Shown: positions 1,416-15,898 of the stretch, piece by piece
How the letters are laid out: every line of letters starts with the position of its first letter
Position numbering within the stretch: position 1 is the stretch's first letter
Source of the DNA: a bacterium
GTDB taxonomy: Bacteria > CAIWAD01
DNA: 15,910 nt
Direction of reading: 5' to 3'
Assembly: GCA_030685015.1 (NCBI GenBank)
Contig: JAUXWS010000085.1
Span: 1 to 15,910, forward strand
The notes under the pieces: model-generated
What the model saw: only the letters and a program-made list of their open reading frames with translations
The model's database searches: none
What the model was told of the DNA's origin: nothing
Position numbers and translations under genes: made by a program

Positions 1416-2231
1416 TCACAGCCGGGTGCCGCAGCGCTTGCAGAAGTCGGCGTCGCGGTCGTGCCCGGCCAGGGCGCAGGCCGGGCAGGGACCGCGGACA
1501 GGGCTGCGCGGGCGGTTTAGTTCCACGGTGACGATGCCGGTGGGCACGGCCACGATGGCGTACCCCAGCAGCATGATGACGGAGGCCAGGGCCTTGCCCA
1601 GCGGCGTCGCCGGCGAGATGTCGCCGTAGCCCACCGTCGTGATGGTGACGATGGTCCAGTAGATGGACTGCGGGATGCTCGTGTAGCCGTGGCTGCTCCC
1701 CTCCACGATGTACATGGCGGCGCCGAGGATGATGGTGGTCACCAGCACGAAGGAGATGAAGATGGACAGCTTGCGCCGGCTGCCGCGGATGGCCGCCATC
1801 AACACGTCGGCCTCGCCCACGTAATGCGCCAGCTTGAGGATGCGGAAGACGCGCAGGATGCGCAGGGCCCGCACCACCTGGAAGAACTGGGCGCCGGGGA
1901 GGACCAGGCTGAGGTAGGTGGGCACGATGGAGACCAGGTCGACCACGCCATAGAAGCTGCGGGCATAGCCCAGGGGGCGCGGCGCGCAGAGCAGGCGCAG
2001 GACGTACTCCACCGTGAAGAGCAGGGTGAAGGCCCATTCCAGGGCGACGAGGATCGAGCCCCAGCGGTCGTGGACAGTCGCGACGGAATCCAGCATGATG
2101 ACCAGCACGCTGGCCAGGATGCTGGCGATGAGCACCAGGTCGAAGGCCCGGCCGGCGCGCGTGTCGTGGCCGAAGATGACGGTGTGGAGCGTGCGGCGCC
2201 AGGGCTTACGTTGGGCTTGCGGAGGGTTCAT
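1416..2231 (-). CDS. Voltage-gated-type potassium channel with C-terminal zinc ribbon
   Basis: This 271-aa protein has the six-helix Kv layout. Membrane helices cover roughly residues 30-50, 60-82, 94-112, 118-135 (S4), 156-176 and 212-236. S4 carries arginines at every third position (R121, R124, R127, R130), the pattern of a voltage sensor. The pore helix leads into the selectivity filter TVGYGD at 199-204. The cytoplasmic tail has CPAC (249-252) and CKRC (264-267), a short zinc-ribbon-like pair instead of the RCK domain found in many bacterial channels. The expected role is gated K+ flow across the inner membrane. The ATG at 2231 has AAGGAAG five bases upstream. It is separated from the potassium uptake operon by 181 bp with repeats, so it probably has its own promoter, which I could not identify. 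Confidence 0.93.
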   Translation of the reverse strand: MNPPQAQRKPWRRTLHTVIFGHDTRAGRAFDLVLIASILASVLVIMLDSVATVHDRWGSILVALEWAFTLLFTVEYVLRLLCAPRPLGYARSFYGVVDLVSIVPTYLSLVLPGAQFFQVVRALRILRVFRILKLAHYVGEADVLMAAIRGSRRKLSIFISFVLVTTIILGAAMYIVEGSSHGYTSIPQSIYWTIVTITTVGYGDISPATPLGKALASVIMLLGYAIVAVPTGIVTVELNRPRSPVRGPCPACALAGHDRDADFCKRCGTRL

Positions 2232-2412: not shown

Positions 2413-4536
2413 TCAGAGCAGGCCGTTCACCCGCCGCCAGATCCACTCCCCGGCGATGAGCAGCAGGAGGGCGGCGAGGATCCAGCCCTCCCCCGCCAGT
2501 TCCCGCTGGCGGCCGGCGCGGCGCAGGAGGGGCCGCGTCTCCAGGCTGTCCAGCGCCTCGCCCGAAGCCAGCCGGGCGCGGTCTTCGGCGTCGTCCAGAT
2601 TGAACAGGCGGCCGCCACCCAGGGCGGCCATCTCCCCCAGCAGGCGCTGGTTGCGGCTGCCGTCCAGACTCTCCGGGCTGCGCTCCTCCACCAGCACGCG
2701 TCCGCTGTCGGCCAGCTGGGGGCGGTCCCCCAGGCGGGCCAGGGCCAGCCAGCGCCATTCCCCGGGCGGCAGGGCGGGCAGGGTCCCGGCGTAGGCGCCG
2801 CCGCCGCGGGGCTCCAGGCTGAGGCCGCGCGCCAGAGAGTCGGGGCCGAGCAGGCGCAGCTCGATGGAGGCGCCGTCCCGCGGGCGGCCGTCCTCCTCGC
2901 GCAGGCGGGCCTCGAAGGCGAGCGGCGCCCCCGCCGGCAGGGCCTCGCGATCGGGCCGCACGCGCAGCAGGCCCTGGACCGGCGCGGCCAGCAGCCAGTC
3001 GGCCAGGCCATCGACCAGGTCGCGGGCGCGCCGGTTCCCCCCCAGCGAGAGCTGGCTGCCCACGCCCCAGCGTCCCAGGCCCTGGACGGTGAGCCAGGCC
3101 TGGCGCAGCTCGGCCTGCTGCCGCAACAGAAGCAGGGGCCTCCCCTCGGCCGACTCCAGCAGGACGCGGCCGCCCGCCGGCGGCGCTCCCCCGGCCAGGC
3201 CGCGGGTGGCGGCGAGGGGCGGCATCTCGGCGTAGATGGCGCGCAGCTCCGCCAGGCTCTCCTCCGGCCCCAGCAGGGCGTGGGCCTGGGGCACGCGCAC
3301 GCCGCCCGCCGCGCCGGGCCGCCAGGGACCCAGGCCGCGCTCGAGGGCGGGGGCGAGGCGCTCCAGATCGGCGCCCTCGCCGTCCAGCCAGAGCAGGGGC
3401 TTGCCCGGGAGGGCGCCCGCCACCAGCGCGGCCAGCTCGGGGGAGCGGCCGCGCAGTGGCCAGTGGGCCAGCACCAGCAGGCGGGAGCGCTCGATGGCCC
3501 GCCTGAGGTCGGCCAGGTCCACCCCGGGCCGCTCGGGCATGGCGAAGAGGAGATCGAGATCGGGCCGGGCCTCCAGCACGGAACGAAGAAAGCCCAGATC
3601 CTCCGAGGGCCGCCCGGCCAGCAGGAGGATCGGCCGGCGCGCCTCCTCGACCCGCACCTGGACGGCGCGCCCGTTGTTTTCCGCGGTGCGCTCGCCGCCG
3701 CCTTCCAGCACGGCATCCAGGCGCAGCAGGCGGGGGCCGGCCACCTGCGGCGTCCATTCCAGCTCCACGCGCTGGCGGGCGCCGTCCACGCCCAGCTCGA
3801 GGGAGGCGACGGCCAGCTGGCGCCCCTCCTCGCTGAGCGTCACCCGCGCCGTGCGCCCGCCCAGGCCCCGGCTCTCCAAATCGACGGAGATAGGCTGGGC
3901 TCGTCCCAGGCGGGCTTGGCGGTTCAGCTCCACCTCGCGCAGCACCAGGTCGGCCACGGGATCCAAGCGGCCGGTGCCGGCACACCAGACGCGGGCCGGG
4001 AGGCGGCGCACCCGCTCCAGGGGCCAGGCGCCCGTCGTGGGGTTGCCATCCCCGACGAGGAGCAGGCCGGTCCAGTGCTCGCCCTGCATGGCCCGCTCCA
4101 CGCCGGCCAGGGCGCCGTCCAGGTCGGTCTCCACGCCGTCGCCGGGCAGGAGGGGCGCTTCCGTGGCCGACAGCTCGCGCAGACCGCCGTCATAGGCGAA
4201 GAGGCGCAGGCGCACGCCGTCGAGCCGGCTGGCCAGCTGGGGCAGCCAGTCGCCGTGGTCGAGGCGGCCCACCAGGTGGCGCAGGCTGGCCGAGTTGTCG
4301 AGCAGCACGGCCAGGGTGGCCGGGCGGCGCTGCACCTCGTTCCAGCGCAGGCGCGGTCCGCAGAGCAGGAGGATGAGGACCGTCCACAGCGCCAAGCGGG
4401 CCAGGGCCAGGCCGCGCCGCAGGCGGCGGGAGGGCTCCGGCCGGGTGACGCGCAGGCTCCACCAGGTCAGCCAGGCGGCGGCCGGCCAGAGGAGCAGGGG
4501 CCACCAGCGGGCGAGGTCGAGGGTCAGGTCGGTCAC
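2413..4536 (-). CDS. Membrane-anchored von Willebrand factor A domain protein
   Basis: This 707-aa protein has two N-terminal membrane helices (about residues 11-30 and 43-60), then a vWA domain. Its metal-site residues are visible: DNSAS (80-84), T137 in ETDLDGAL and D163 in LLVGDGN. A long periplasm-like region with Ig-like beta stretches follows (about 195-300 and 530-640), and a C-terminal helix (about 682-700) ends in WRRVNGLL. The layout matches large bacterial vWA membrane proteins related to the BatA/B group, often found with MoxR ATPases; no MoxR or other Bat gene is visible here. Substrate or partner is unknown. The start is GTG at 4536, overlapping the tsaD stop in GTGA, with AGGGAG upstream; this indicates translational coupling at the end of the operon. 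Confidence 0.85.
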   Translation of the reverse strand: MTDLTLDLARWWPLLLWPAAAWLTWWSLRVTRPEPSRRLRRGLALARLALWTVLILLLCGPRLRWNEVQRRPATLAVLLDNSASLRHLVGRLDHGDWLPQLASRLDGVRLRLFAYDGGLRELSATEAPLLPGDGVETDLDGALAGVERAMQGEHWTGLLLVGDGNPTTGAWPLERVRRLPARVWCAGTGRLDPVADLVLREVELNRQARLGRAQPISVDLESRGLGGRTARVTLSEEGRQLAVASLELGVDGARQRVELEWTPQVAGPRLLRLDAVLEGGGERTAENNGRAVQVRVEEARRPILLLAGRPSEDLGFLRSVLEARPDLDLLFAMPERPGVDLADLRRAIERSRLLVLAHWPLRGRSPELAALVAGALPGKPLLWLDGEGADLERLAPALERGLGPWRPGAAGGVRVPQAHALLGPEESLAELRAIYAEMPPLAATRGLAGGAPPAGGRVLLESAEGRPLLLLRQQAELRQAWLTVQGLGRWGVGSQLSLGGNRRARDLVDGLADWLLAAPVQGLLRVRPDREALPAGAPLAFEARLREEDGRPRDGASIELRLLGPDSLARGLSLEPRGGGAYAGTLPALPPGEWRWLALARLGDRPQLADSGRVLVEERSPESLDGSRNQRLLGEMAALGGGRLFNLDDAEDRARLASGEALDSLETRPLLRRAGRQRELAGEGWILAALLLLIAGEWIWRRVNGLL

Positions 4537-5564
4537 GTCAGCTCCCTTCGGGCGGTCCCGGTGGAGGCCTGCTCCAGATCAAAGCGCGGGGTGGCGTCCT
4601 CGTGCCGGGGACTGCGCTCGCCGCGGAGCAGGCGGCCATGGGCGGCACGGGCGATCATCACGGCGTTGTCCGTGCACCAAGCCAGGGGCGGCAGGGCCAG
4701 GGGCAAGCCGAGGGTGGCGCAGGCCGCCTCCAACTGGGCGCGCAGGCGGGCGTTGGCGGCCACGCCCCCGGCCAGCACCAGCTGGCGGGCGCCCGTCGCC
4801 TCGGCGGCGCGCAGGGCCCCCCGCGCCAATTGGTCGCAGACGGCCTGCTCGAAGGAGGCGCAGATGTCGGACACGTGCGCCGCGCGCCAGGCCGCGTCCT
4901 GGGCCCTCAGGCTGTGCAGCACGGCGGTCTTGAGGCCGCTGAAGGAGAAGTCGAAACCCTCGCGCCCGGCCAGGGCGCGGGGATAGGCGAGGAAGGCGGG
5001 GTCGCCCCCCGCCGCCGCGCGACCGATGGCTGGTCCTCCCGGCCAGCCCAGACCCAGCAGCTTGGCCACCTTGTCGAAGGCCTCGCCCGCCGCGTCGTCC
5101 AGCGTGCGGCCGATGATGCGGTAACGGCGCGGCTCCTCCATCAGCACCAACTGGGTATGCCCGCCCGAGATGACCAGCACGAGGCAGGGCAGGAGGGGCT
5201 CCTCCTCGACGAAGCTGGCGTAGATGTGCCCTTCCATGTGGTTGACGCCCAGGAAAGGCAGGTCGCGGGCATAGGCCAGGCACTTGCCCAGATGGTAGCC
5301 CACGAGCAGGCTGCCGGGCAGGCCCGGCCCGCGGGTGGCGGCCACCGCCGCCAGGTCTCCGATCTCCAGGCCGGCCTCGGCCAGCGCGGCGTTGATGACG
5401 GCGGGCAGGACGCGCAGGTGTTCGCGGCTGGCCAGTTCCGGCACGACGCCGCCCCAGTCGCGGTGGACAAGCTGGGTGGAGACGACGCTGGACAGGACCC
5501 GCGCCCCGTCGATGAGGGCGGCGGCGCTTTCGTCGCAGGAACTCTCGATGCCGAGGAGGATCAT
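4533..5564 (-). CDS. tsaD: tRNA N6-adenosine threonylcarbamoyltransferase TsaD
   Basis: This 343-aa protein has the usual TsaD length and motifs. TsaD transfers the threonylcarbamoyl group from threonylcarbamoyl-AMP to A37 of ANN-decoding tRNAs, acting with TsaB and TsaE in the cytoplasm. Seen here: the N-terminal ESSCDES (7-13), the iron-binding HMEGH (109-113), the nucleotide-binding SGGHT (133-137), the DDAAGEAFDK segment (156-165), LAGGVAANARLR near 255 and the late metal-ligand segment CTDNAVMIARA. Nothing essential appears missing. It overlaps the YbbR gene upstream by 4 bp (ATGA) and the vWA gene downstream by 4 bp (GTGA), so it sits inside an operon headed by serS. Neither tsaB nor tsaE is in the window. 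Confidence 0.97.
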   Translation of the reverse strand: MILLGIESSCDESAAALIDGARVLSSVVSTQLVHRDWGGVVPELASREHLRVLPAVINAALAEAGLEIGDLAAVAATRGPGLPGSLLVGYHLGKCLAYARDLPFLGVNHMEGHIYASFVEEEPLLPCLVLVISGGHTQLVLMEEPRRYRIIGRTLDDAAGEAFDKVAKLLGLGWPGGPAIGRAAAGGDPAFLAYPRALAGREGFDFSFSGLKTAVLHSLRAQDAAWRAAHVSDICASFEQAVCDQLARGALRAAEATGARQLVLAGGVAANARLRAQLEAACATLGLPLALPPLAWCTDNAVMIARAAHGRLLRGERSPRHEDATPRFDLEQASTGTARRELT

Positions 5565-6547
5565 GGAGCCGGTGGTCCCAGCGTGTCCGGCGCCTCGGCC
5601 GCCGGGGCGCTCCGCTTGCCCAGGATGCGGAAGAGGGCCGGATCGGGGTTGGTCCAGCTGAAGCCCTCCGGCACGATGATGCGGCAGGGCGCCTCCCGCT
5701 GGTCGGGCGCCAGGCGGGTGAAGTCGAGCACGGCCTCGATCTGGTCCTTGTCGAAGGCGGCGAGGGCTTTTTCGCCGCCCACGACGGTGAGGGCCAGCTG
5801 GCGCGGCCGGACCGAGAGCGGCGCCGGCAAATGGAGGACGCGCAGCGGGATCCCCGTGAAGCGGCGCTCGGCGCGGCGCTCCACGGCGGCGTGGAGGGTC
5901 ACGGCCGCCGGCTCGAGATCGACGGAGGGCCAGGGCCGCTGGAGGGGAACGACCTCTTCCACGTCACGCCGGCGCGCGGGCAGCTCGACCAGCACCGTCT
6001 CGACCTGGCTGAGGGTGTCCAGCACGCTGCGCGGCCCCGTCACCTTGACGTGGCCGGGATTCAACTCCGGCAACTCGGTCAAGACCCAGCCTTCGCCGGC
6101 CTCCACCCTTCCCTTGAGGCGGACGGGCAGGCGGCGTGTCTCGAGGCGGTCCACCTCCAGGGGCAGGATGGCGGGCAGGATGCCGGCCACGCTCAGGTCC
6201 ACCGCCCCGATCAGCTCCACGTGCCGGCTGGTGAGGGGGACGCTCTCGCCGCCGCGGCCGCCCTCCACCCGGACCAGCCCCTCCCCGAAGAGGGCAAAGA
6301 CGAGCAGGCTGCGCCCCTTGCCGCGGAGGAGGACCTGCACCTCGGCGGGCGGGCGCGTCACCAGGGTGCGACCCTCGGCCAGGTCAAGCTGCAACTCGAG
6401 GGGCAGATCGAACTCGATCTCCATCTCCTCGCTTGTATGGACGAAGAACCAACTGACGGCGGCGAGCAGCAGAAGCACGAGCTTGACCTGCAGGTGCCGG
6501 GTGAGGGCGGTGATGATCTTGTTGAGGCGGACGATCAGGACTCTCAT
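5561..6547 (-). CDS. YbbR-domain membrane-anchored protein (CdaR-like)
   Basis: This 328-aa protein has one N-terminal helix (about 20-37, ending WFFVHTSEE) and then a series of YbbR-type beta domains, about 48-125, 130-215 and 220-300. The second shows the family pattern closely (LPVRLKGRVEAG, then VKVTGPRSVLDTLSQVET). A Pro/Ala-rich tail ends the protein. Proteins of this family are exported and membrane-tethered; in Firmicutes the member CdaR binds and modulates the diadenylate cyclase CdaA. No cyclase gene is next to it here. Its neighbours are two trkH genes upstream and tsaD downstream. The ATG directly abuts the trkH stop (TAGATG) and its own stop overlaps tsaD in ATGA, so coupled expression is likely. 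Family call firm; a c-di-AMP role is inference. Confidence 0.88.
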   Translation of the reverse strand: MRVLIVRLNKIITALTRHLQVKLVLLLLAAVSWFFVHTSEEMEIEFDLPLELQLDLAEGRTLVTRPPAEVQVLLRGKGRSLLVFALFGEGLVRVEGGRGGESVPLTSRHVELIGAVDLSVAGILPAILPLEVDRLETRRLPVRLKGRVEAGEGWVLTELPELNPGHVKVTGPRSVLDTLSQVETVLVELPARRRDVEEVVPLQRPWPSVDLEPAAVTLHAAVERRAERRFTGIPLRVLHLPAPLSVRPRQLALTVVGGEKALAAFDKDQIEAVLDFTRLAPDQREAPCRIIVPEGFSWTNPDPALFRILGKRSAPAAEAPDTLGPPAP

Positions 6548-7996
6548 CTAGCGTTTCCAGTAGTGGACGCTGAACATGACCAGTATGGTGAAAAGCTCGA
6601 GTCGGCCCAGCAGCATGAGCCAGCTGAGGAGCAGCTTGCCCGCCGGGTGGATGCCGGCGTAGTTGCCCGCCGGACCCAGCTCCCCCAGCCCCGGCCCGAT
6701 GTTGCTGAGGCAGGCCAGGGTGCCGCTCAAGCCCGTCTCGAGATCGTGTCCGAGCAGGGCCAGCACCAGGGTGCCCAGGGCCAGTTGGAGCAGGAAGACG
6801 ACAAAGAAACTATGGATGGCGGCCACCAGGACCGGCGGCACGATGCGCTCCCCCAGCCGCACATGCAGCACGGCCCGCGGCGAGATGAGGCGGCGCAGCA
6901 CCAGGCGGGCGCTGGCGACCAGCACGCGGATGCGCACCACCTTGACGCCCCCGCCCGTGGAGCCGGCCATGCCGCCCACCATCATCAGGCCCAGCAGGCC
7001 CACCCGGCCGAAGGAATGCCAGGCGTCGAAGTTGTCGGTGGAAAAGCCGGTCGTGGTCAGGATGGAGACGGCCTGGAAGGAACCGTCGATGAGGGCGCCG
7101 GGCCAGGGCCGGTCGTGGGCCAGGACCAGCATCGCGGCGAAGGCAAGGGAGGCGGCGCCGGCGATGCCGGCATAGCAGCGCCATTCCGGATCCTCCCAGA
7201 GGAGGCGGAGCCGGCCGGTGCGCAGCAGACGGAAGTAGAGGACGAAATTGATGCCCGCCATGAACATGAAGCATGTGACGACCAGATGGAGGTAGGGGCT
7301 GTCCCAGGCGCCCAGGGAGAGGGTGCGGGTGGAGAAGCCGCCCGTCGCCATGGTCGTGAAGCTGTGGGCCGCCGCGTCGTAGAGGGTCATGCCCCCCGCC
7401 AGCAGCAGGAGGATTTCCAGGGCGGTCAGGCCCACGTAAATGCCCCACAGGATCTTGGCCGTGTCCGACAGACGGGGGGTGAACTTCTCACTGGTGGGGC
7501 CGGGCGTCTCCGCCTTGAAGAGGTGGAGGCCGCCCACCCCCAGCATGGGCAGGATGGCCAGGCCGAAGAGGACGATGCCCAGGCCGCCGATCCACTGCAT
7601 GAAACAGCGCCAGAAGGCGATGCCGTGGGGCAAGCGCTCTGGATCGGCCAGGATGGAGGCGCCGGTGGTGGTGAAGCCGCTCATGGACTCGAAGAAGGCA
7701 TCGATCCAGTGAGTCGTGTGGCCGCCCAGGTGGAAGGGCAGGGCGCCGCAGACAGCCATCAGCACCCAGCCGAGGGTGACCACGGCGAATCCTTCGCGCA
7801 CGGTCAACTCCCCGCGGCTGCGGCGGGTGGCCAGCACGGCCAGCGCTCCCGTAAGGGCGGTCAGCCCCGCCGAGGCCAGCAGCACGCCAACGTCCCCCCC
7901 TCCGTGAAGGAGGGCAACCAGCCAGGGCAGCAACATGCCACCGGCCAGGAAAAGGAGGATCCAGCCCAGGACGTGGGCGACGCGCTTGCTCTTCAT
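6548..7996 (-). CDS. trkH: TrkH-family potassium uptake pore protein, copy 1
   Basis: This 482-aa membrane protein has the four-fold pore repeat of the TrkH/KtrB superfamily. The four filter loops are TTTGAS (109-114), ATGGFST (217-223), TTTGFST (314-320) and SNIGPG (431-436), each keeping the filter glycine. GGMAGSTGGGVK (341-352) matches the conserved segment after the third pore loop. It should form the K+ path through the inner membrane and be gated by a TrkA-type ring. It is the second of two tandem trkH genes after a single trkA. Unlike the other junctions, 47 bp separate it from the gene upstream, and I see no good Shine-Dalgarno sequence; instead the ATG lies at the foot of a small hairpin (7995-8014). 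Confidence 0.95.
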   Translation of the reverse strand: MKSKRVAHVLGWILLFLAGGMLLPWLVALLHGGGDVGVLLASAGLTALTGALAVLATRRSRGELTVREGFAVVTLGWVLMAVCGALPFHLGGHTTHWIDAFFESMSGFTTTGASILADPERLPHGIAFWRCFMQWIGGLGIVLFGLAILPMLGVGGLHLFKAETPGPTSEKFTPRLSDTAKILWGIYVGLTALEILLLLAGGMTLYDAAAHSFTTMATGGFSTRTLSLGAWDSPYLHLVVTCFMFMAGINFVLYFRLLRTGRLRLLWEDPEWRCYAGIAGAASLAFAAMLVLAHDRPWPGALIDGSFQAVSILTTTGFSTDNFDAWHSFGRVGLLGLMMVGGMAGSTGGGVKVVRIRVLVASARLVLRRLISPRAVLHVRLGERIVPPVLVAAIHSFFVVFLLQLALGTLVLALLGHDLETGLSGTLACLSNIGPGLGELGPAGNYAGIHPAGKLLLSWLMLLGRLELFTILVMFSVHYWKR

Positions 7997-8014
7997 TGCT
8001 TGGAATTAAGCAAT
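7995..8014 (-). promoter_or_regulatory. Small hairpin at the trkH copy 1 start codon
   Basis: ATTGCTT (7995-8001) and AAGCAAT (8008-8014) form a perfect 7-bp stem with loop GGAATT. On the minus-strand mRNA the AU of the AUG start is inside the 3' arm. In a GC-rich genome this AT-rich stem stands out. It may tune translation of the second pore protein; the stem is weak, so it could be chance. Confidence 0.35.
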
Positions 8015-8043
8015 CCGGCCGCCCGGTCGCTTGCCCTGATCAC

Positions 8044-9495
8044 TCAACGGCGCCAGAAGTGGCGGCTGAAGACGACCAGGACGGTGAGGAACTCAAGGCG
8101 TCCCAGCAGCATGTCGGCCGTCAGGAGGAGCTTGATGTCGGCGCCCAGGTGGGCGTAGTTGCCCATCGGTCCCATCCGGCCCAGTCCTGGGCCCGCGTTG
8201 GAAAGGCAGGCCGTCACGCCCGCCACCGCTTCGTCAAAGGCACAGCCCTGCCAGGCCAGGTACAGCGTGCTGATCCCCCAGAAACAAAAGTAGAAACCGA
8301 CGAGGGCCATCACGTCGAGGATCAATTCGTTGCCCAGCGTGCGGCCACCGAAACGGGCGGGCGAAATGGCCTGCGGTTGAAGGGTGCGGCGCAGCACCTT
8401 GCGCAGGATGGCCAACACCATCCCCAGCCGGATCGTTTTCAGTCCACCGGAGGTGGAACCCGCCATGCCGCCCACCACCATGAGTCCCACCAGCGTGAGG
8501 CCGGCGAAGGAGGGCCACAGGTTGTAGTCCTCCGTGGCGAAGCCGGCCGTGGTGAAAAGGGATGCGACCTGGAAGGCGCTTGCCCGCAGGGCGCGCGACC
8601 ACTCCCAGCCCAGTTCGCCGATGAGCAGGATGCCGATGAGGACGGTCGCGGCGACGAAGAGGCCGAGAAAGAGACGCAGTTCCCCGTCACGCAACACGGC
8701 GCGCCAGTCCCGCTTTCTCACCAGGATGTAGTAGAGGGTGAAGTTGATGCCCGAAAGCAGCATGAAGACGGTGATGACCCACTCGATGGCCGGACTGGCG
8801 AAGGTGGCGATGGAGGTGTCTCGGGTGGAGAATCCGCCCGTGGCGATGGTGCCGAAGCTGTGGGCCACTGCGTCGTAGAGGTCCATCCCGAAGAGCCAGA
8901 GCAGGGCGGCGCAGGCCACGTTAAGGGACAGGTAGACGATGAGCAGGATGCGCACCGTGTCCTTCAGCCTCGGAGTCAGCTTCTCGGCGATGGGTCCGGC
9001 GGCCTCCGCGCGGAAGAGCGACATGCCGCCAGCGCCCATCATGGGCAGGATGACGAGGGCGAAGAGCACGATGCCGAAGCCGCCCACGAAATGGGTGAAG
9101 CAGCGCCAGAAGCCCACGCCGCGGCTGAGGGCGGAAGGTTGGGTGAGAATGCTGGAGCCAGTGGTGGTGAAACCGCTCATGGACTCGAAGAGGGCATCGG
9201 TGAAGGCGGGAACCTGTCCGGAAAGCACGAAGGGCAGGGTGCCAAACAGGGCCATGAGCAGCCAACTGAGGGTGACGGCGGCAAAGCTCTCGCGCACGGT
9301 CATCTCGCCCTGGACCCGTCTTCCCGCCAACACGGCGGCCGCACCCGTCCCGGCGGTGATCAGCGCGCTGCCCAGCAGGGCGACGCGATCTCCCTCGCCG
9401 TGATAGCAGAAGCTTATGGCCAACGGGATCAACATGGCTACGCCCAGACAGAACAGCACCCAGCCCAGGAGTCGTCCAATGCGAAGTACTTTCAT
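8044..9495 (-). CDS. trkH: TrkH-family potassium uptake pore protein, copy 2
   Basis: This 483-aa protein aligns along its length with the 482-aa trkH copy next to it. The filter loops read TTTGSS (110-115), ATGGFST (218-224), TTAGFAT (315-321) and SNAGPG (432-437); the glycines are kept, but loops three and four differ from copy 1 (TTTGFST, SNIGPG). GGMAGSTSGGLK (342-353) matches the conserved segment of the family. It is an inner-membrane K+ uptake subunit expected to work with TrkA. The ATG at 9495 lies four bases after the trkA stop, so it is surely co-transcribed with trkA and is the copy physically closest to it. The tandem arrangement suggests an old duplication with divergence, since the two proteins differ at many positions. 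Confidence 0.95.
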   Translation of the reverse strand: MKVLRIGRLLGWVLFCLGVAMLIPLAISFCYHGEGDRVALLGSALITAGTGAAAVLAGRRVQGEMTVRESFAAVTLSWLLMALFGTLPFVLSGQVPAFTDALFESMSGFTTTGSSILTQPSALSRGVGFWRCFTHFVGGFGIVLFALVILPMMGAGGMSLFRAEAAGPIAEKLTPRLKDTVRILLIVYLSLNVACAALLWLFGMDLYDAVAHSFGTIATGGFSTRDTSIATFASPAIEWVITVFMLLSGINFTLYYILVRKRDWRAVLRDGELRLFLGLFVAATVLIGILLIGELGWEWSRALRASAFQVASLFTTAGFATEDYNLWPSFAGLTLVGLMVVGGMAGSTSGGLKTIRLGMVLAILRKVLRRTLQPQAISPARFGGRTLGNELILDVMALVGFYFCFWGISTLYLAWQGCAFDEAVAGVTACLSNAGPGLGRMGPMGNYAHLGADIKLLLTADMLLGRLEFLTVLVVFSRHFWRR

Positions 9496-9499
9496 CCGA

Positions 9500-10846
9500 T
9501 CATCCGAAGTACTTCTCGAGGTCGGGCAGGCGCTCGTCGAGGGTGACCACCATCACCAGGTCGCCCGGCTCCACCTGGTCCTGTCCGCGGGGCACGAAAG
9601 CGGCGCCGCGGCGCTGGATGCCGGCCAGGAGCGCTTGCTCGGGGAGGTCGAGGCGGGCGATGGGCTGCTTGCAGAGGCGACTCTCCGGCGGAATGCGGAA
9701 GCTGGCGACAAGCGCTCCCGAGCCGGAGAGGGTGAGGCGCTGCTGCAGCTGGCCCACGCGGATGTAGCGCAGGATCTCCTGGGCGGCGATGAGGCGCTCG
9801 TTGATGCCCACGTCCAGGCCGATCGTCTTGATGATGGGCATGTAGTCCGCCCGCCGCACCAGCGTGATGGTGCGTTTCACCCCCAGGTGCTTGGCCACGA
9901 GGCAAGTGATGATGTTGTCCTCCTCGTCGCCGGTGAGGGAAAGGAGGACGTCCATGTCGCCCAGGGCGTGCTGGGCCATGGTGTCGATCTCCTTGCCCGA
10001 GGCGCTGAAAATGTCGATGCGGGGCAGGCGCTCGGCCAGGTCGTACTCGGAGATCCAGGTGTCGGTGTGGGTGGTGAAGAGCTTGACGTTGGCGCCGCCC
10101 ACTTTCTGCAGGTCCTCGGCCACCGCCACGGCGATGCGGCTGGAGCCGAGGATCATGACGTGGCGGCTGCGGGCGTCGGCGATGCCCGTCATGCGGAAGA
10201 TCTCGACGGAATCGCGCGAACGCACGGCGAAGGTGACGGTGTCCCCGGCGCGCAGCACGTCCTCTCCGCGCGGGATGCTGGTGAGGCCCTGGGAGACGCG
10301 CGCCACGATGCGGTAACTGATGCGGTCGTACTTCTGCGCCAGCTTGATCAGGTTGCGCCCGTCCAACGGGCCGCCCTTCTCCACGGTGAGGGAGATCATG
10401 CGGATCTGCCCGCCCAGGAAGTCGCTGTAGTCCTTGACAGCGCTGTGGAGCAGCAGGTCCATGATCGCCTTGGCCGCCGCCTTCTCCGGGTTGACGGTGA
10501 GGGTGGCCTGGCCCAGGCGCTTGATCTCCTCGGTCAGCTCGTCGCTGCGGATGCGGGCGATGCGATTGGCCACGCCCAGGCGCTCGCCGGCCATGCAGGC
10601 CAGCAGGTTGATCTCGTCGATGTTGGTGGCGGCCACCAGGTAGTCCGCGCCTTTGGCGCCGGCCTTCTCCAGCACACTCTGCAGGGTGCCGCTGCCGTGG
10701 ACGACGGCGATGTCCAGCTGGTCGGCCAGCTCCTGCAGGCGGGGGCCGTTCTGGTCGACGAGGGTGACGTCGACCTGGGTCTCGCGGCTGAGGACGCGGG
10801 CCAGATAGCTGCCCACGTCCCCGGCGCCGATGATGATGACTCTCAT
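9500..10846 (-). CDS. trkA: Trk system gating protein TrkA (two RCK units)
   Basis: The ATG at 10846 gives a 448-aa protein, the usual TrkA length, beginning MRVIIIGAGDVGS; a longer frame upstream is only the overlapping gene in another frame. There are two RCK_N-RCK_C units. The first has a complete Rossmann glycine motif, GAGDVG (7-12), and Asp31 at the end of strand two, consistent with NAD(H) binding. The second has the degenerate motif GSSRIA (244-249), common in second halves of TrkA. RCK_C domains lie at about 145-225 and 370-448. The protein forms a cytoplasmic ring that gates TrkH in response to nucleotides, and in some bacteria RCK_C domains bind c-di-AMP. It overlaps the upstream 190-aa gene in ATGA and precedes trkH copy 2 by 4 bp. 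Confidence 0.96.
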   Translation of the reverse strand: MRVIIIGAGDVGSYLARVLSRETQVDVTLVDQNGPRLQELADQLDIAVVHGSGTLQSVLEKAGAKGADYLVAATNIDEINLLACMAGERLGVANRIARIRSDELTEEIKRLGQATLTVNPEKAAAKAIMDLLLHSAVKDYSDFLGGQIRMISLTVEKGGPLDGRNLIKLAQKYDRISYRIVARVSQGLTSIPRGEDVLRAGDTVTFAVRSRDSVEIFRMTGIADARSRHVMILGSSRIAVAVAEDLQKVGGANVKLFTTHTDTWISEYDLAERLPRIDIFSASGKEIDTMAQHALGDMDVLLSLTGDEEDNIITCLVAKHLGVKRTITLVRRADYMPIIKTIGLDVGINERLIAAQEILRYIRVGQLQQRLTLSGSGALVASFRIPPESRLCKQPIARLDLPEQALLAGIQRRGAAFVPRGQDQVEPGDLVMVVTLDERLPDLEKYFG

Positions 10847-11415
10847 GTTGTCCCGTAATTGACACAAGCCTCGCCGGCGCAGGCGCCGTCCATGGGGCAG
10901 CCTGCTCCGCCCAGCAGGCCCTCGCAGCGGCCGCAGGAGGGGGAGGGGCGGGCTTCCGCCCGATCGGGGCGCGACAAAGCCTCCGCCCCGCCGTCTCCCA
11001 GCAGGCGGTCCAGCACCACGCGCCGCCCCGCCTCCTCGGCGGCGGCCAGCGCCGCCACGCAGGCGGCGGGGTCCTCGCCCAGGCAGACGATCTGGCCCTC
11101 CAGCCTGACCAGAAGCCCGCCGCCGGGCAGTCCGCCCCGTCCCTCGGGGTCCGTCCCCAGTTGAAGGCCCCCGGCCGCCAGCCCGTAGAGAAGGGTGACA
11201 GGAAAGGCGGCCCGCTCCCGCCGCGCCGCGCGGCCGTCTCCCAGCACGCGGCATAGCCGCGCCAGCAGCCGCTCCTCCAGGCGATCCGCCTGGTAGCGCA
11301 ACAATCCGTGGTCGTGCGTGCGCCAGAGCAGGCCCGCCCGCTCCGGCAGCAGGCCACAGCGCCGGCCCTCCTCCAGGGCCCGACGGGCCCCTTCACGGTA
11401 GAAGGCGGCCTCCAT
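10843..11415 (-). CDS. Unknown 190-aa protein with Cys-rich C-terminus
   Basis: I do not recognise a family. The gene is supported by its position: the ATG at 11415 lies one base after the serS stop (TGAGATG) and its stop overlaps the trkA start (ATGA). The N-terminal half (1-70) is Arg/Glu/Leu-rich and probably helical; the middle (71-140) looks like a mixed alpha/beta fold (FPVTLLYGLAAGGLQLG, then GLLVRLEGQIVCLGEDP). The tail is striking: Cys161, 164, 173, 179 and 184, spaced C-x2-C-x8-C-x5-C-x4-C, ending VNYGTT. Such clusters often bind zinc or an iron-sulphur centre, but that is a guess. No signal peptide or membrane helix is seen, so it is likely cytoplasmic. Its place between serS and trkA hints at a link with either, without proof. 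Confidence 0.75.
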   Translation of the reverse strand: MEAAFYREGARRALEEGRRCGLLPERAGLLWRTHDHGLLRYQADRLEERLLARLCRVLGDGRAARRERAAFPVTLLYGLAAGGLQLGTDPEGRGGLPGGGLLVRLEGQIVCLGEDPAACVAALAAAEEAGRRVVLDRLLGDGGAEALSRPDRAEARPSPSCGRCEGLLGGAGCPMDGACAGEACVNYGTT

Positions 11416-11416
11416 C

Positions 11417-12685
11417 TCAGCCGATCCGCTCGCGGCCGCCCATCCAGGGGCGCAGGGCGGGCGGCACCGTCACCCCGCCGTCCTCCGTCTGCCAGGTCTC
11501 GAGCAGGGCGACGATGAGGCGGCTGGTGGCCAGGCCGCTGCCGTTCAAGGTGTGCAGGAACTGGGGCTTGCCCCCCTTGTCCTTGTAGCGCATGTTGCCG
11601 CGCCGCGCCTGGAAGTCGGCGAAGCTGCTGCAGGAGCTGCATTCCAGGTAGCGGCCCTCGGCCGGACTCCACACCTCCAGGTCGTAGGTGCGGGCGCTGG
11701 CGAAGGAGAGATCCCCCGTGCAGAGGGCCAGCACGCGGTAGTGCAGGCCCAGGCGGCGCAGCACCTCCTCGGCGTGGCCGCGCAGGGCATTGAGGGCGGC
11801 GTCGCTCTCCTCCGGGCGCACGAACTGGACCAGCTCCACCTTGTTGAACTGGTGGACGCGCAGGAAGCCGCGCACCTCCTTGCCGTAGCTGCCCGCCTCC
11901 CGCCGGAAGCAGGCGCTGTAGCCGGCGTAGCGCAGGGGCAGGCTCTCGCCGGGCAGCACCTCGTCCCGGTGCAGGTTGGTGATGGGCACCTCGGCGGAGG
12001 GGATGGCGAAGAGCTCGTCCTTCCCGCAGTGGTACATGTCCTCTTCCATCTTGGGCAGCTGGCCCGTGGCGGTCATGGACTCGCGGTTGGCCAGGAAGGG
12101 CGGGAAGACCTCGGTGTAGCCGTGCTCGCCCGTCTGGAGGTCCAGCATGAAGTTGATCAAGGCCCGCTCCAGACGCGCCCCCAGCCCCTTGTAGACCGGA
12201 AAGCCGCTCCCGGCGATCTTCGCCCCGCGGGGGAAGTCGAGGATGTCCAGCGCCTCGCCCAGCTCCAGGTGGTTGCGCGGCGTGAAGGCGAAGGGCGGCT
12301 TCTCCCCCCACTCCGCCACCACCACGTTGTCCCGCTCGTCGCGGCCGACGGGGGTCTCCGGGTGGGGCGTGTTGGGCAGCCGCATGAGCAGCCAGCCCTG
12401 CCGCTCGTCCACCTCCTTCAGCTCGGCGTCCACGGCCTTGATGCGCTCCCCCACCTCGCGCATGGCGGCGATGCGCGAGGCGGCGTCGCCGCCCGCCCGC
12501 TGCACCTCGGCGATGGCCCTGGACTCGGCGTTGCGCACGGCCTTCAGCTTCTCGCTCTCCTGCAGGAGGGCCAGGCGCCGGCCATCCAGGGCCAGGATCT
12601 CGTCCAGGTCCAGCTCGGGGCTTTTGGTGCGCAGGGCCGCCAGCACGGCCTCGGGCTTCTCGCGGATGCGGCGCAGGTCCAGCAT
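11417..12685 (-). CDS. serS: Seryl-tRNA synthetase
   Basis: The ATG at 12685, six bases after AAGGAAG, gives 422 aa, the normal bacterial SerRS length; the frame further upstream lacks sense and is excluded. The enzyme charges tRNA-Ser with serine in the cytoplasm. Residues 30-100 form the N-terminal coiled-coil arm that contacts the long variable arm of tRNA-Ser. Class II motif 1 is near 169-196, the serine-binding segment reads PSAEVPIT (229-236, Ser where TAE is more common), motif 2 spans FRREAGSYGKE (260-270) and on to HQF, and motif 3 is GSGLATSRL (382-390). All catalytic parts are present. It is the first gene of the long minus-strand run that continues into the potassium genes, behind a leader containing a large hairpin. 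Confidence 0.97.
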   Translation of the reverse strand: MLDLRRIREKPEAVLAALRTKSPELDLDEILALDGRRLALLQESEKLKAVRNAESRAIAEVQRAGGDAASRIAAMREVGERIKAVDAELKEVDERQGWLLMRLPNTPHPETPVGRDERDNVVVAEWGEKPPFAFTPRNHLELGEALDILDFPRGAKIAGSGFPVYKGLGARLERALINFMLDLQTGEHGYTEVFPPFLANRESMTATGQLPKMEEDMYHCGKDELFAIPSAEVPITNLHRDEVLPGESLPLRYAGYSACFRREAGSYGKEVRGFLRVHQFNKVELVQFVRPEESDAALNALRGHAEEVLRRLGLHYRVLALCTGDLSFASARTYDLEVWSPAEGRYLECSSCSSFADFQARRGNMRYKDKGGKPQFLHTLNGSGLATSRLIVALLETWQTEDGGVTVPPALRPWMGGRERIG

Positions 12686-12691
12686 GGGGGA

Positions 12692-12698
12692 CTTCCTT
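12692..12698 (-). promoter_or_regulatory. Ribosome binding site of serS
   Basis: AAGGAAG on the minus strand, six bases before the ATG at 12685. It fixes the serS start against longer in-frame alternatives that extend to 12787. Confidence 0.75.
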
Positions 12699-12707
12699 GT
12701 GCATGAC

Positions 12708-12741
12708 AACGGCCGGTGGCGGACCAACCGCCCCGGCCGTT
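12708..12741 (-). promoter_or_regulatory. Large GC hairpin in the serS leader
   Basis: The arms at 12708-12722 and 12728-12741 pair along 14 bp with one bulged base, around a 5-base loop. It lies between the pfk terminator candidate and the serS ribosome site, which begins 9 bases past the stem on the minus strand. No T run follows, so read-through control, an RNA stability element or a leader structure are all possible. It does not show T-box features. Confidence 0.45.
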
Positions 12742-12788
12742 GCGTCAGGGTTCGCCGGAAGGTCGAAACTGGCTCCCGCTCATCCAAA

Positions 12789-14186: not shown

Positions 14187-15898
14187 ATGCCTGTCTGCCT
14201 CCTGCTGCTTTGGATTGGCCTGGCTCTGGGCGCTTGGGCCAGTGTGCTGCGCGTGCCCTTCCCTTTCGGACAGATCCAGTGGGCGATCGACGCCAGCCAG
14301 GCCGGCGACACGGTGCTGGTCGAGCGCGGCGTCTACCGCGAGCGGCTGACGATCCCTGTCCACGACTTGACGCTGGCCTCGCGCTGCCTCTACACTGGCG
14401 ACACGCTCGACATCGCCGGAACCATTATTGACGGCGAACTGGAGGGCACGGTGATCACCGTGCTGGCGGGCGAGCGGCTCTTCCGGCTGAACGGCTTCGT
14501 GATCACGAGGGGTTGGGCGGTCTTCGATACAACGGTCACGGGCGGAGGAGTCTGGGTTCAAGAAAGGGCGGACATCCAGTTCGAGAATCTCGTGTTCACG
14601 AACAATGGAACGGAATTCGGAGCGTTTGGGGCCGCCGTGTGCGGCGGCTTCCCTTTCAACGAGATCGGTTCCGCCAAGATCCACAATCTGCAGATCACGG
14701 ACAACAACCACCTGCCCGGGTCGCACTGGGAGCCGGATAACTACGCCTTCGCCCTTCGCGGAACCGGGCGGTTCGAAGTCTCCAACATATTCTGCAATGG
14801 GGCAGGACTCAACGATCCGGCCTTCTTTGTCGCCAGCTACGACAGCCTGTTCGCCGACTCGATCCGCGTGGTCGGCTATGTCGGCAACTTTGCCTCGGTG
14901 TGCGGTCTGCGGAGTTCGGTGCATCTCGATGTCGAACACGTGCGCATCCTGGATACATTCGTTGGCGAGTGCGGCAGCGGTTTGATAAGGAACTAAGGAA
15001 CTGTCAGTTCATTCGTAACAACCGATTTGCACTGTGGTATTACTCGTTCGACGATAGTGGAACAGTACGGTTGCAGAATACGCTATTTACCGGAACAAGA
15101 ATGCAAGAGTTTTATCTTCCTTATCCTCAGTTGCAGGGTGTATTCTCAATTCACAGTTACAATCTCAACGAGGGGTCAATAACTGAAAACGTAACTGTAA
15201 CAGCCTGTTCGACGGCTTCTGCATTAGGTCTAGGATCGAACACACAAGGTCCTGCTTTTGTGCGTAACTTGTTGTTCTGGGATAATACCTATGAGTCCTT
15301 CATCCGACCATATGGGTATGGAGATGAACAACCGGGCGCCTTCTCGTATTGTTTAGTAGACCACTTGCTCCCTGGAGCCGGCAATCTGGTCATAGATCCT
15401 CAGTTCGATGACCAACTGGGTGCACCCTGGTTGGGCGCTGCCTCGCCTTGCATCGATGCTGGCGATCCGAATCCTTTGTACAACGACATGGAAGACCTTG
15501 CCGCCCCCGCCTTCGCCTTGTGGCACAGCCAGGGCAGCCTGCGCAACGACATGGGCTTCACCGGCGGGCCGCGGGCCGCCGTCTTCGACACGGCCTGGGT
15601 GGCCCTGCCGCGCTGGGAGCCGCGCACCCAACCACAGGCCTTCACCCTGGGCGCGCCCTGGCCCAACCCCTTCAACCCGGTGACGCGCATTCCCCTCACC
15701 CTGCAACATCCCATGCCCGTCCGCCTCGTCGTGCACAACCTGCTGGGGCAGCAGGTGGCCGTCTTGGTGGATGGCCTCCTGCCGGCGGGCACGCATCACC
15801 TGCCCTTCCAGGCCGGACGCCTGGCCAGCGGCCTCTATCTGGTCACGCTGGAGGCGGCGGGGCGGGCGCAGACGAGGACGGTGACGCTGCTGAGGTAG
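14187..15898 (+). pseudogene. Secreted beta-helix protein with T9SS-type sorting domain, frameshifted
   Basis: The frame from ATG 14187 stops at TAA 14994-14996; the rest continues in another frame to TAG 15898. Deleting one copy of the 8-bp duplication at 14987-15002 joins the two into about 567 residues with no other stop. Residues 1-18 are a signal peptide. Next comes the parallel beta-helix opening typical of exported proteins (FGQIQWAIDASQAGDTVLVE), followed by many Asn-rich rungs such as FVITRGWA and LVFTNNGT. The joined segment GLIRNCQFIRNNRF is itself a good rung. Near 15445 is SPCIDAGDPNP, common at the end of such helices. The last 86 codons or so (from about 15638) form a FlgD-Ig/Por-type C-terminal domain (PNPFNPVTRIPLTL, then ASGLYLV), which directs type IX-like secretion or surface attachment. 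Ligand unknown. It could be inactive, or a short exported N-terminal fragment may still be made. Confidence 0.85.
14987..15002 (+). repeat. 8-bp tandem duplication causing a frameshift
   Basis: AAGGAACT occurs twice with no gap (14987-14994 and 14995-15002). The duplication shifts the frame by two and places TAA at 14994-14996. Removal of one copy gives ATA AGG AAC TGT CAG and a continuous beta-helix protein. Confidence 0.95.

Follow-up and report, generated by a model that had tools for sequence, protein, structure and literature searches.

The 15,910-bp contig JAUXWS010000085.1 (the window, from assembly GCA_030685015.1, GTDB lineage CAIWAD01) carries a ybbR gene for a CdaR-type protein, a family that includes the partner of the diadenylate cyclase CdaA, which lies between two trkH genes coding for potassium channel subunits and tsaD, a gene for tRNA N6-threonylcarbamoyladenosine (t6A) synthesis. 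Across distant bacteria, the conserved neighbour of ybbR is tsaD and not the potassium genes. The CdaR genes surveyed fall into two exclusive classes, cyclase-linked and tsaD-linked, of which the recurring tsaD-linked arrangement is apparently undescribed. A sequence-only reading of the window had taken its trkA-trkH-trkH-ybbR order to suggest control of potassium uptake by cyclic diadenosine monophosphate (c-di-AMP) outside the Firmicutes; the CdaR-type YbbR was confirmed and a cyclase is encoded elsewhere in the genome, while neither the adjacency nor the RCK_C domains of TrkA held up as evidence for a potassium link.

The pairing of ybbR with tsaD

In 106 genomes outside the phylum, the sequence flanking ybbR was surveyed to a distance of at most about 8 kb in either direction (less where contigs end); these loci are the listed Pfam YbbR matches and under-sample diverged YbbRs. 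Scored on the same strand as ybbR, 75 loci have a cyclase gene directly upstream, 18 have tsaD directly downstream, none has both, and 13, some of which end at contig ends, have neither. The 18 tsaD-class loci come from 15 families (counted as family codes, not necessarily independent origins), and the gap between ybbR and tsaD is at most 52 nt in 17 of them, with some genes overlapping. Its recurrence in 15 other families puts the pairing beyond chance. When the open reading frames (ORFs) around the tsaD-class genes were clustered, only ybbR and tsaD occurred in every neighbourhood, and a gene like the 707-aa gene of the window followed tsaD in several. The window shows the same organization, with tsaD directly downstream of ybbR, on the same strand and overlapping it; ybbR likewise adjoins tsaD in the rest of its family, but in one genome (G004) a small ORF lies between them.

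The tsaD-linked proteins also tend to group by sequence. In a quick tree, many forks of which are weak, 20 of the 22 tsaD-linked YbbRs, including the four of the window's family, are found in one cluster (SH-aLRT 93, below the 95 mark), and the class labels change four times compared with a mean of 20 after shuffling. A GxG-type N-terminal motif, picked after seeing the data, is present in 14/18 tsaD-class and 2/72 cyclase-class proteins. No paper treating YbbR together with TsaD or YgjD was found among open-access full texts, which is weak evidence of novelty. The tsaD-linked class predicts where to find CdaR in genomes whose cyclase stands alone.

The window protein has the CdaR layout, a single membrane helix (residues 19-39) followed by about three YbbR domains. 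An AlphaFold model, made with the 22 tsaD-linked YbbRs as input (mean pLDDT 90, pTM 0.66), places beta domains after this helix. Its best fold match is the pneumococcal YbbR-like protein SP_1560 (4qdy, Z 9.4, 177 residues, 4.8 A), followed by the YbbR domain of Listeria lmo2119 (5hqh, Z 9.0, 92 residues, 3.3 A); domain IV of a Desulfitobacterium YbbR (2l3u, Z 5.6) matches residues 234-322, and 3lyw is a further YbbR entry among the matches, which together span residues 40-225 and 234-322. An L25/TL5-type ribosomal-protein fold, considered for the second YbbR domain, ranked below the YbbR entries and is taken to reflect a shared beta arrangement. Pfam match, model and fold matches thus bear out the earlier assignment as a CdaR-type protein. 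A YbbR scan of viral contigs gave no match.

The potassium genes of the window

The ybbR gene belongs to a tight run of eight genes:

11417-12787, minus strand: serS (Pfam tRNA-synt_2b and Seryl_tRNA_N), at the upstream end of the run
10843-11415, minus strand: gene for a 190-aa protein of unassigned family with a Cys-rich C-terminus (CGRCEGLLGGAGCPMDGACAGEACVNY), between serS and trkA
9500-10846, minus strand: trkA, with TrkA_N and TrkA_C (two stretches each) and the NCBIfam TrkA equivalog NF007039 above cut-off
8044-9495, minus strand: trkH1, potassium channel subunit (Pfam TrkH, 1.8e-65)
6548-7996, minus strand: trkH2, potassium channel subunit (Pfam TrkH, 1.7e-62)
5561-6547, minus strand: ybbR, CdaR-type, 328 aa (Pfam YbbR, E 8.8e-10)
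4533-5564, minus strand: tsaD, tRNA t6A transferase subunit (TIGR03723, 2.2e-117, above cut-off)
2413-4536, minus strand: gene for a 707-aa membrane protein, VWA-like through a weak match of its homologue L135, with no family match of its own

The gene order, strand and coordinates given for trkA-trkH-trkH-ybbR in the sequence-only reading were confirmed, including the TAGATG junction, read directly from the sequence, at which the ybbR start abuts the trkH2 stop; the run is longer than had been described and includes tsaD, which had been omitted. Overlaps occur between trkA and the 190-aa gene (ATGA), between the tsaD start and the ybbR stop (ATGA), and between the 707-aa gene and tsaD, while trkH1 and trkH2 are separated by 47 nt. 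This spacing suggests that the genes from serS to the 707-aa gene form an operon and are co-transcribed. The two TrkH proteins are 48.5% identical, and trkH1 is closest to the single trkH of the related genome G002 (67.7%). A further potassium gene adjoins the run on the same strand: a voltage-gated-type channel (Ion_trans/Ion_trans_2, 1416-2231, minus strand) with a TTVGYGD filter.

A scan of genome contigs gave only the three family relatives. The trk genes directly adjoin ybbR in two of the four family genomes, the window genome and G002, where the order is serS-190aa-trkA-trkH-ybbR-tsaD-707 with a spacing of 40-60 nt. The order in G003 is pfk-serS-190aa-ybbR-tsaD-707, the trk block being missing from the locus, and TrkH was not found in this genome (90% complete; other potassium systems were not searched). 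In G004, pfk-serS-X-trkA-trkH is followed by an insertion, about 15.5 kb of other genes, ybbR, the small ORF, tsaD and the 707-aa gene; the trk block lies on the same strand as ybbR, 15.5-20 kb away. The insertion comprises a gene judged by eye to be transposase-like and a 3' copy of trkH, which is not an old second trkH since it is 98.4% identical to the full trkH of that genome and represents a recent partial duplication. The ancestor of the family probably had the trk block, which G003 would then have lost.

Outside the phylum, no TrkH or TrkA match was found within 8 kb of ybbR in any of the 106 loci. The count near ybbR remained at 0/106 with 20 diverse TrkH queries (20/20 recovered in a leave-one-out trial), and a Pfam TrkH search of 30 survey genomes, including all 18 of the tsaD class, found none near ybbR, the nearest being located about 17 kb away (G218). 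A trk-ybbR operon recurring in related and unrelated genomes was therefore not found, and among the loci surveyed the ybbR-trk neighbourhood is an arrangement of this family alone. Incomplete even within the family and absent elsewhere, with ybbR kept in G003 in the absence of trk, the adjacency does not support the potassium connection for which it had been cited: what looks like a plausible neighbourhood of a c-di-AMP regulator and Trk is a family-level arrangement, and the potassium link of ybbR is probably local.

The same reading had proposed modelling the RCK_C domains of TrkA for a c-di-AMP pocket. Bound c-di-AMP sits between RCK_C helices, and the pocket of BusR includes Ile153, Gly154, Asn157, Val158, His160, Ala164-Ile166, Gly180 and Pro181 (PMC8517857). 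The Gly-Pro position reads SPNP in 4xtt (annotated as a putative K+ transport protein; the RCK_C domain of Staphylococcus aureus KtrA, PMC12453120) and SPAP in 6s5e (Ktr protein A). In an alignment, the two RCK_C domains of the window TrkA have PRGQ and PRGE at this position, with an altered pocket-helix region, which in RCK_C2, a domain resembling TM1088B, is shorter by two residues. The Gly-Pro/SPxP turn and pocket-helix residues of regulators of the KtrA, CabP and BusR type are thus missing from the sequences of both domains, which argues against c-di-AMP binding by TrkA, short of proof. Like the c-di-AMP-gated KtrA, CabP and TrkA regulators of Gram-positive bacteria, the window TrkA is an RCK protein that would work with a Trk/Ktr channel subunit; unlike them, it is of the two-RCK Vibrio/enterobacterial type, resembling over its whole length the Vibrio-type TrkA 4j9u (2.7e-48), and lacks the RCK_C pocket signature. 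The other RCK_C protein of the genome, a KefB-like cation/proton antiporter (L022:1468-3171, minus strand), has more of the pocket pattern (LRPQHGVTV) than TrkA, without the SPxP turn.

The cyclase and the proposed role of YbbR

The window genome (97% complete) contains exactly one DAC-domain gene (G000:C100:34395-34745), which has the CdaA N-terminal domain. In the phylum, cdaA follows tsaB, as in this locus:

8279-9175 of locus L008, minus strand: cdaA, with tsaB just upstream

The window genome holds a single gene of each kind, CdaA_N+DAC and YbbR, located on different contigs. The description of the locus as being without a cyclase gene holds for the window and fails for the genome: a search for DisA_N/CdaA genes, which had been proposed as a check, found this single CdaA-type gene, ruling out a genome devoid of cyclase. 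A DAC-domain cyclase is encoded in 5/5 genomes examined from the phylum, with tsaB directly upstream of cdaA in each. TsaB is the partner of TsaD. Outside the phylum this tsaB-cdaA order was found only in one unrelated genome, G084 (L184:485-1908, plus strand). No cyclase gene stands directly beside ybbR as in a CdaA-CdaR operon, the cyclase gene being behind tsaB on the other contig. Because the genome encodes both a CdaR-type YbbR and a DAC-domain cyclase, the latter present in all five phylum genomes, c-di-AMP signalling is likely to exist in this non-Firmicute, as had been suggested.

None of the four family genomes yielded a PgpH-type phosphodiesterase, in a search that did not extend to GdpP-type enzymes. 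Strong c-di-AMP riboswitches (RF00379) were detected in both remaining genomes of the genus, at L063:1501-1633 and L064:1501-1638 (both plus strand, 87 and 84 bits), and none in the window genome. Both are divergent from a TonB-dependent-receptor-like gene and not beside trk; on the strand of the L063 riboswitch, no clear gene intervenes between it and a GC hairpin with a convergently oriented ABC-transporter gene.

As a whole, the data are best explained by a CdaR that modulates a distant CdaA and is expressed together with t6A synthesis, with trk as a local passenger, an account which we consider reasonably probable. The run would be a housekeeping operon with ybbR-tsaD as its conserved core. 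Most likely, the membrane-anchored YbbR would bind and modulate in trans the single CdaA of the genome, tuning c-di-AMP, while the tie of ybbR to tsaD, which here extends to gene overlap, would place it with TsaD, predicted to make the t6A tRNA modification. Only in this family does the trk block separate serS and the 190-aa gene from ybbR; here it would probably share the transcript without a functional tie to YbbR.

The proposed CdaA-YbbR interaction is modelled on studied systems. Full output of Chlamydia DacA needs YbbR (PMC12422730); reports on CdaR in the Firmicutes describe effects in both directions and, for Listeria, an interaction through the membrane region of CdaA (PMC8573169); in Porphyromonas gingivalis, CdaR lowers c-di-AMP and the cdaR and cyclase genes are unlinked (PMC9259658). 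By analogy with these cases, which point both ways, YbbR could either raise or lower CdaA activity. The window genome shares the CdaR type and a CdaA-type cyclase with the Firmicutes cdaA-cdaR(ybbR)-glmM and Chlamydia dacA-ybbR operons (PMC8573169, PMC12422730) but differs from them in having cyclase and regulator on different contigs, with ybbR beside tsaD and, in the window's family, downstream of trk. It resembles the P. gingivalis system more in this respect, since PGN_1486 is a trans-acting regulator encoded in a different region from the cyclase, although the available part of the P. gingivalis study mentions no tie of PGN_1486 to tsaD (its gene neighbours were not compared) (PMC9259658).

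Three points weigh against this account. The binding of this YbbR to this CdaA is extrapolated from other species; the trk block seems old in the family, since in G004 it still lies on the ybbR strand at a distance of 15.5-20 kb, which makes a potassium link specific to the family possible; and the tree cluster, weakly supported, includes five members without adjoining tsaD (four of neither class and one cyclase-linked). Of the alternatives, one would have this branch of YbbR no longer regulate CdaA and serve as a membrane protein of another role, e.g. in envelope assembly, freed from the cyclase operon. The post hoc GxG-type motif, the separate cluster and the unlinked ybbR and cyclase genes agree with it, but a DAC gene was found in 16/18 tsaD-class genomes, the two without being 72% and 83% complete; the protein folds like the cyclase-linked YbbRs; and the unlinked cdaR of P. 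gingivalis does control c-di-AMP (PMC9259658). We regard such a change of role as unlikely, if a little less so than the alternatives that follow.

For the sequence-only model, in which the operon joins YbbR with its Trk target for co-control and c-di-AMP gates TrkA through RCK_C, there speak the zero-gap adjacency here and the 40-60 nt spacing in G002, the linkage on one strand over 15.5-20 kb in G004, the cyclase in the genome, the riboswitch in two genomes of the genus, and the control of potassium uptake by c-di-AMP established elsewhere (PMC12453120). Set against these are G003, with its ybbR but no adjoining trk and no TrkH found, the 0/106 count, the PRGQ/PRGE sequences in place of SPNP/SPAP together with the shortened RCK_C2, and the riboswitches, which are not beside trk and were not found in the window genome; on balance the model appears improbable.

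The tie of ybbR to tsaD allows a modest account, shared housekeeping expression, and a bold one, cross-talk between t6A and c-di-AMP. Under the bold account, YbbR made with TsaD and CdaA made with TsaB would let each pathway sense or balance the other, e.g. through ATP use or translation state. The ybbR-tsaD pairing in 15 families outside the phylum and in this one, and tsaB-cdaA in the five phylum genomes and in G084, are in its favour. However, cdaA adjoins folP, not tsaB, in 14/16 tsaD-class genomes with a DAC gene, which rejects tsaB-cdaA as a general rule for that class; operon membership may mean shared housekeeping expression only; and no paper relevant to both t6A and c-di-AMP was found among open-access full texts. 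We give such coupling a low probability, and an equally low one to its wider form, in which several lineages make a distinct CdaR branch with TsaD and this phylum makes CdaA with TsaB, so that the operons cross-pair partners from the two pathways and c-di-AMP control is coupled to t6A. Whether t6A synthesis and c-di-AMP levels act on one another becomes a testable question.

Further features of the locus

The 190-aa gene gave no match in Pfam or NCBIfam; its orthologues in G002 and G003 are about 49-50% identical, and in the three genomes of the genus it is located between serS and the gene that follows (between serS and ybbR in G003). The 707-aa gene comes after tsaD in the window's family and in four loci outside the phylum. 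At gathering scores, Rfam identified tRNAs only, and no riboswitch, in the window and neighbouring loci. At the other end of the window, positions 14900-15898 (plus strand) code for the C-terminal part of a surface-type protein, whose sorting-like tail (WPNPFNP...LLGQQV...GLYLV) resembles those of FCB-group bacteria; it was recognised by eye only.

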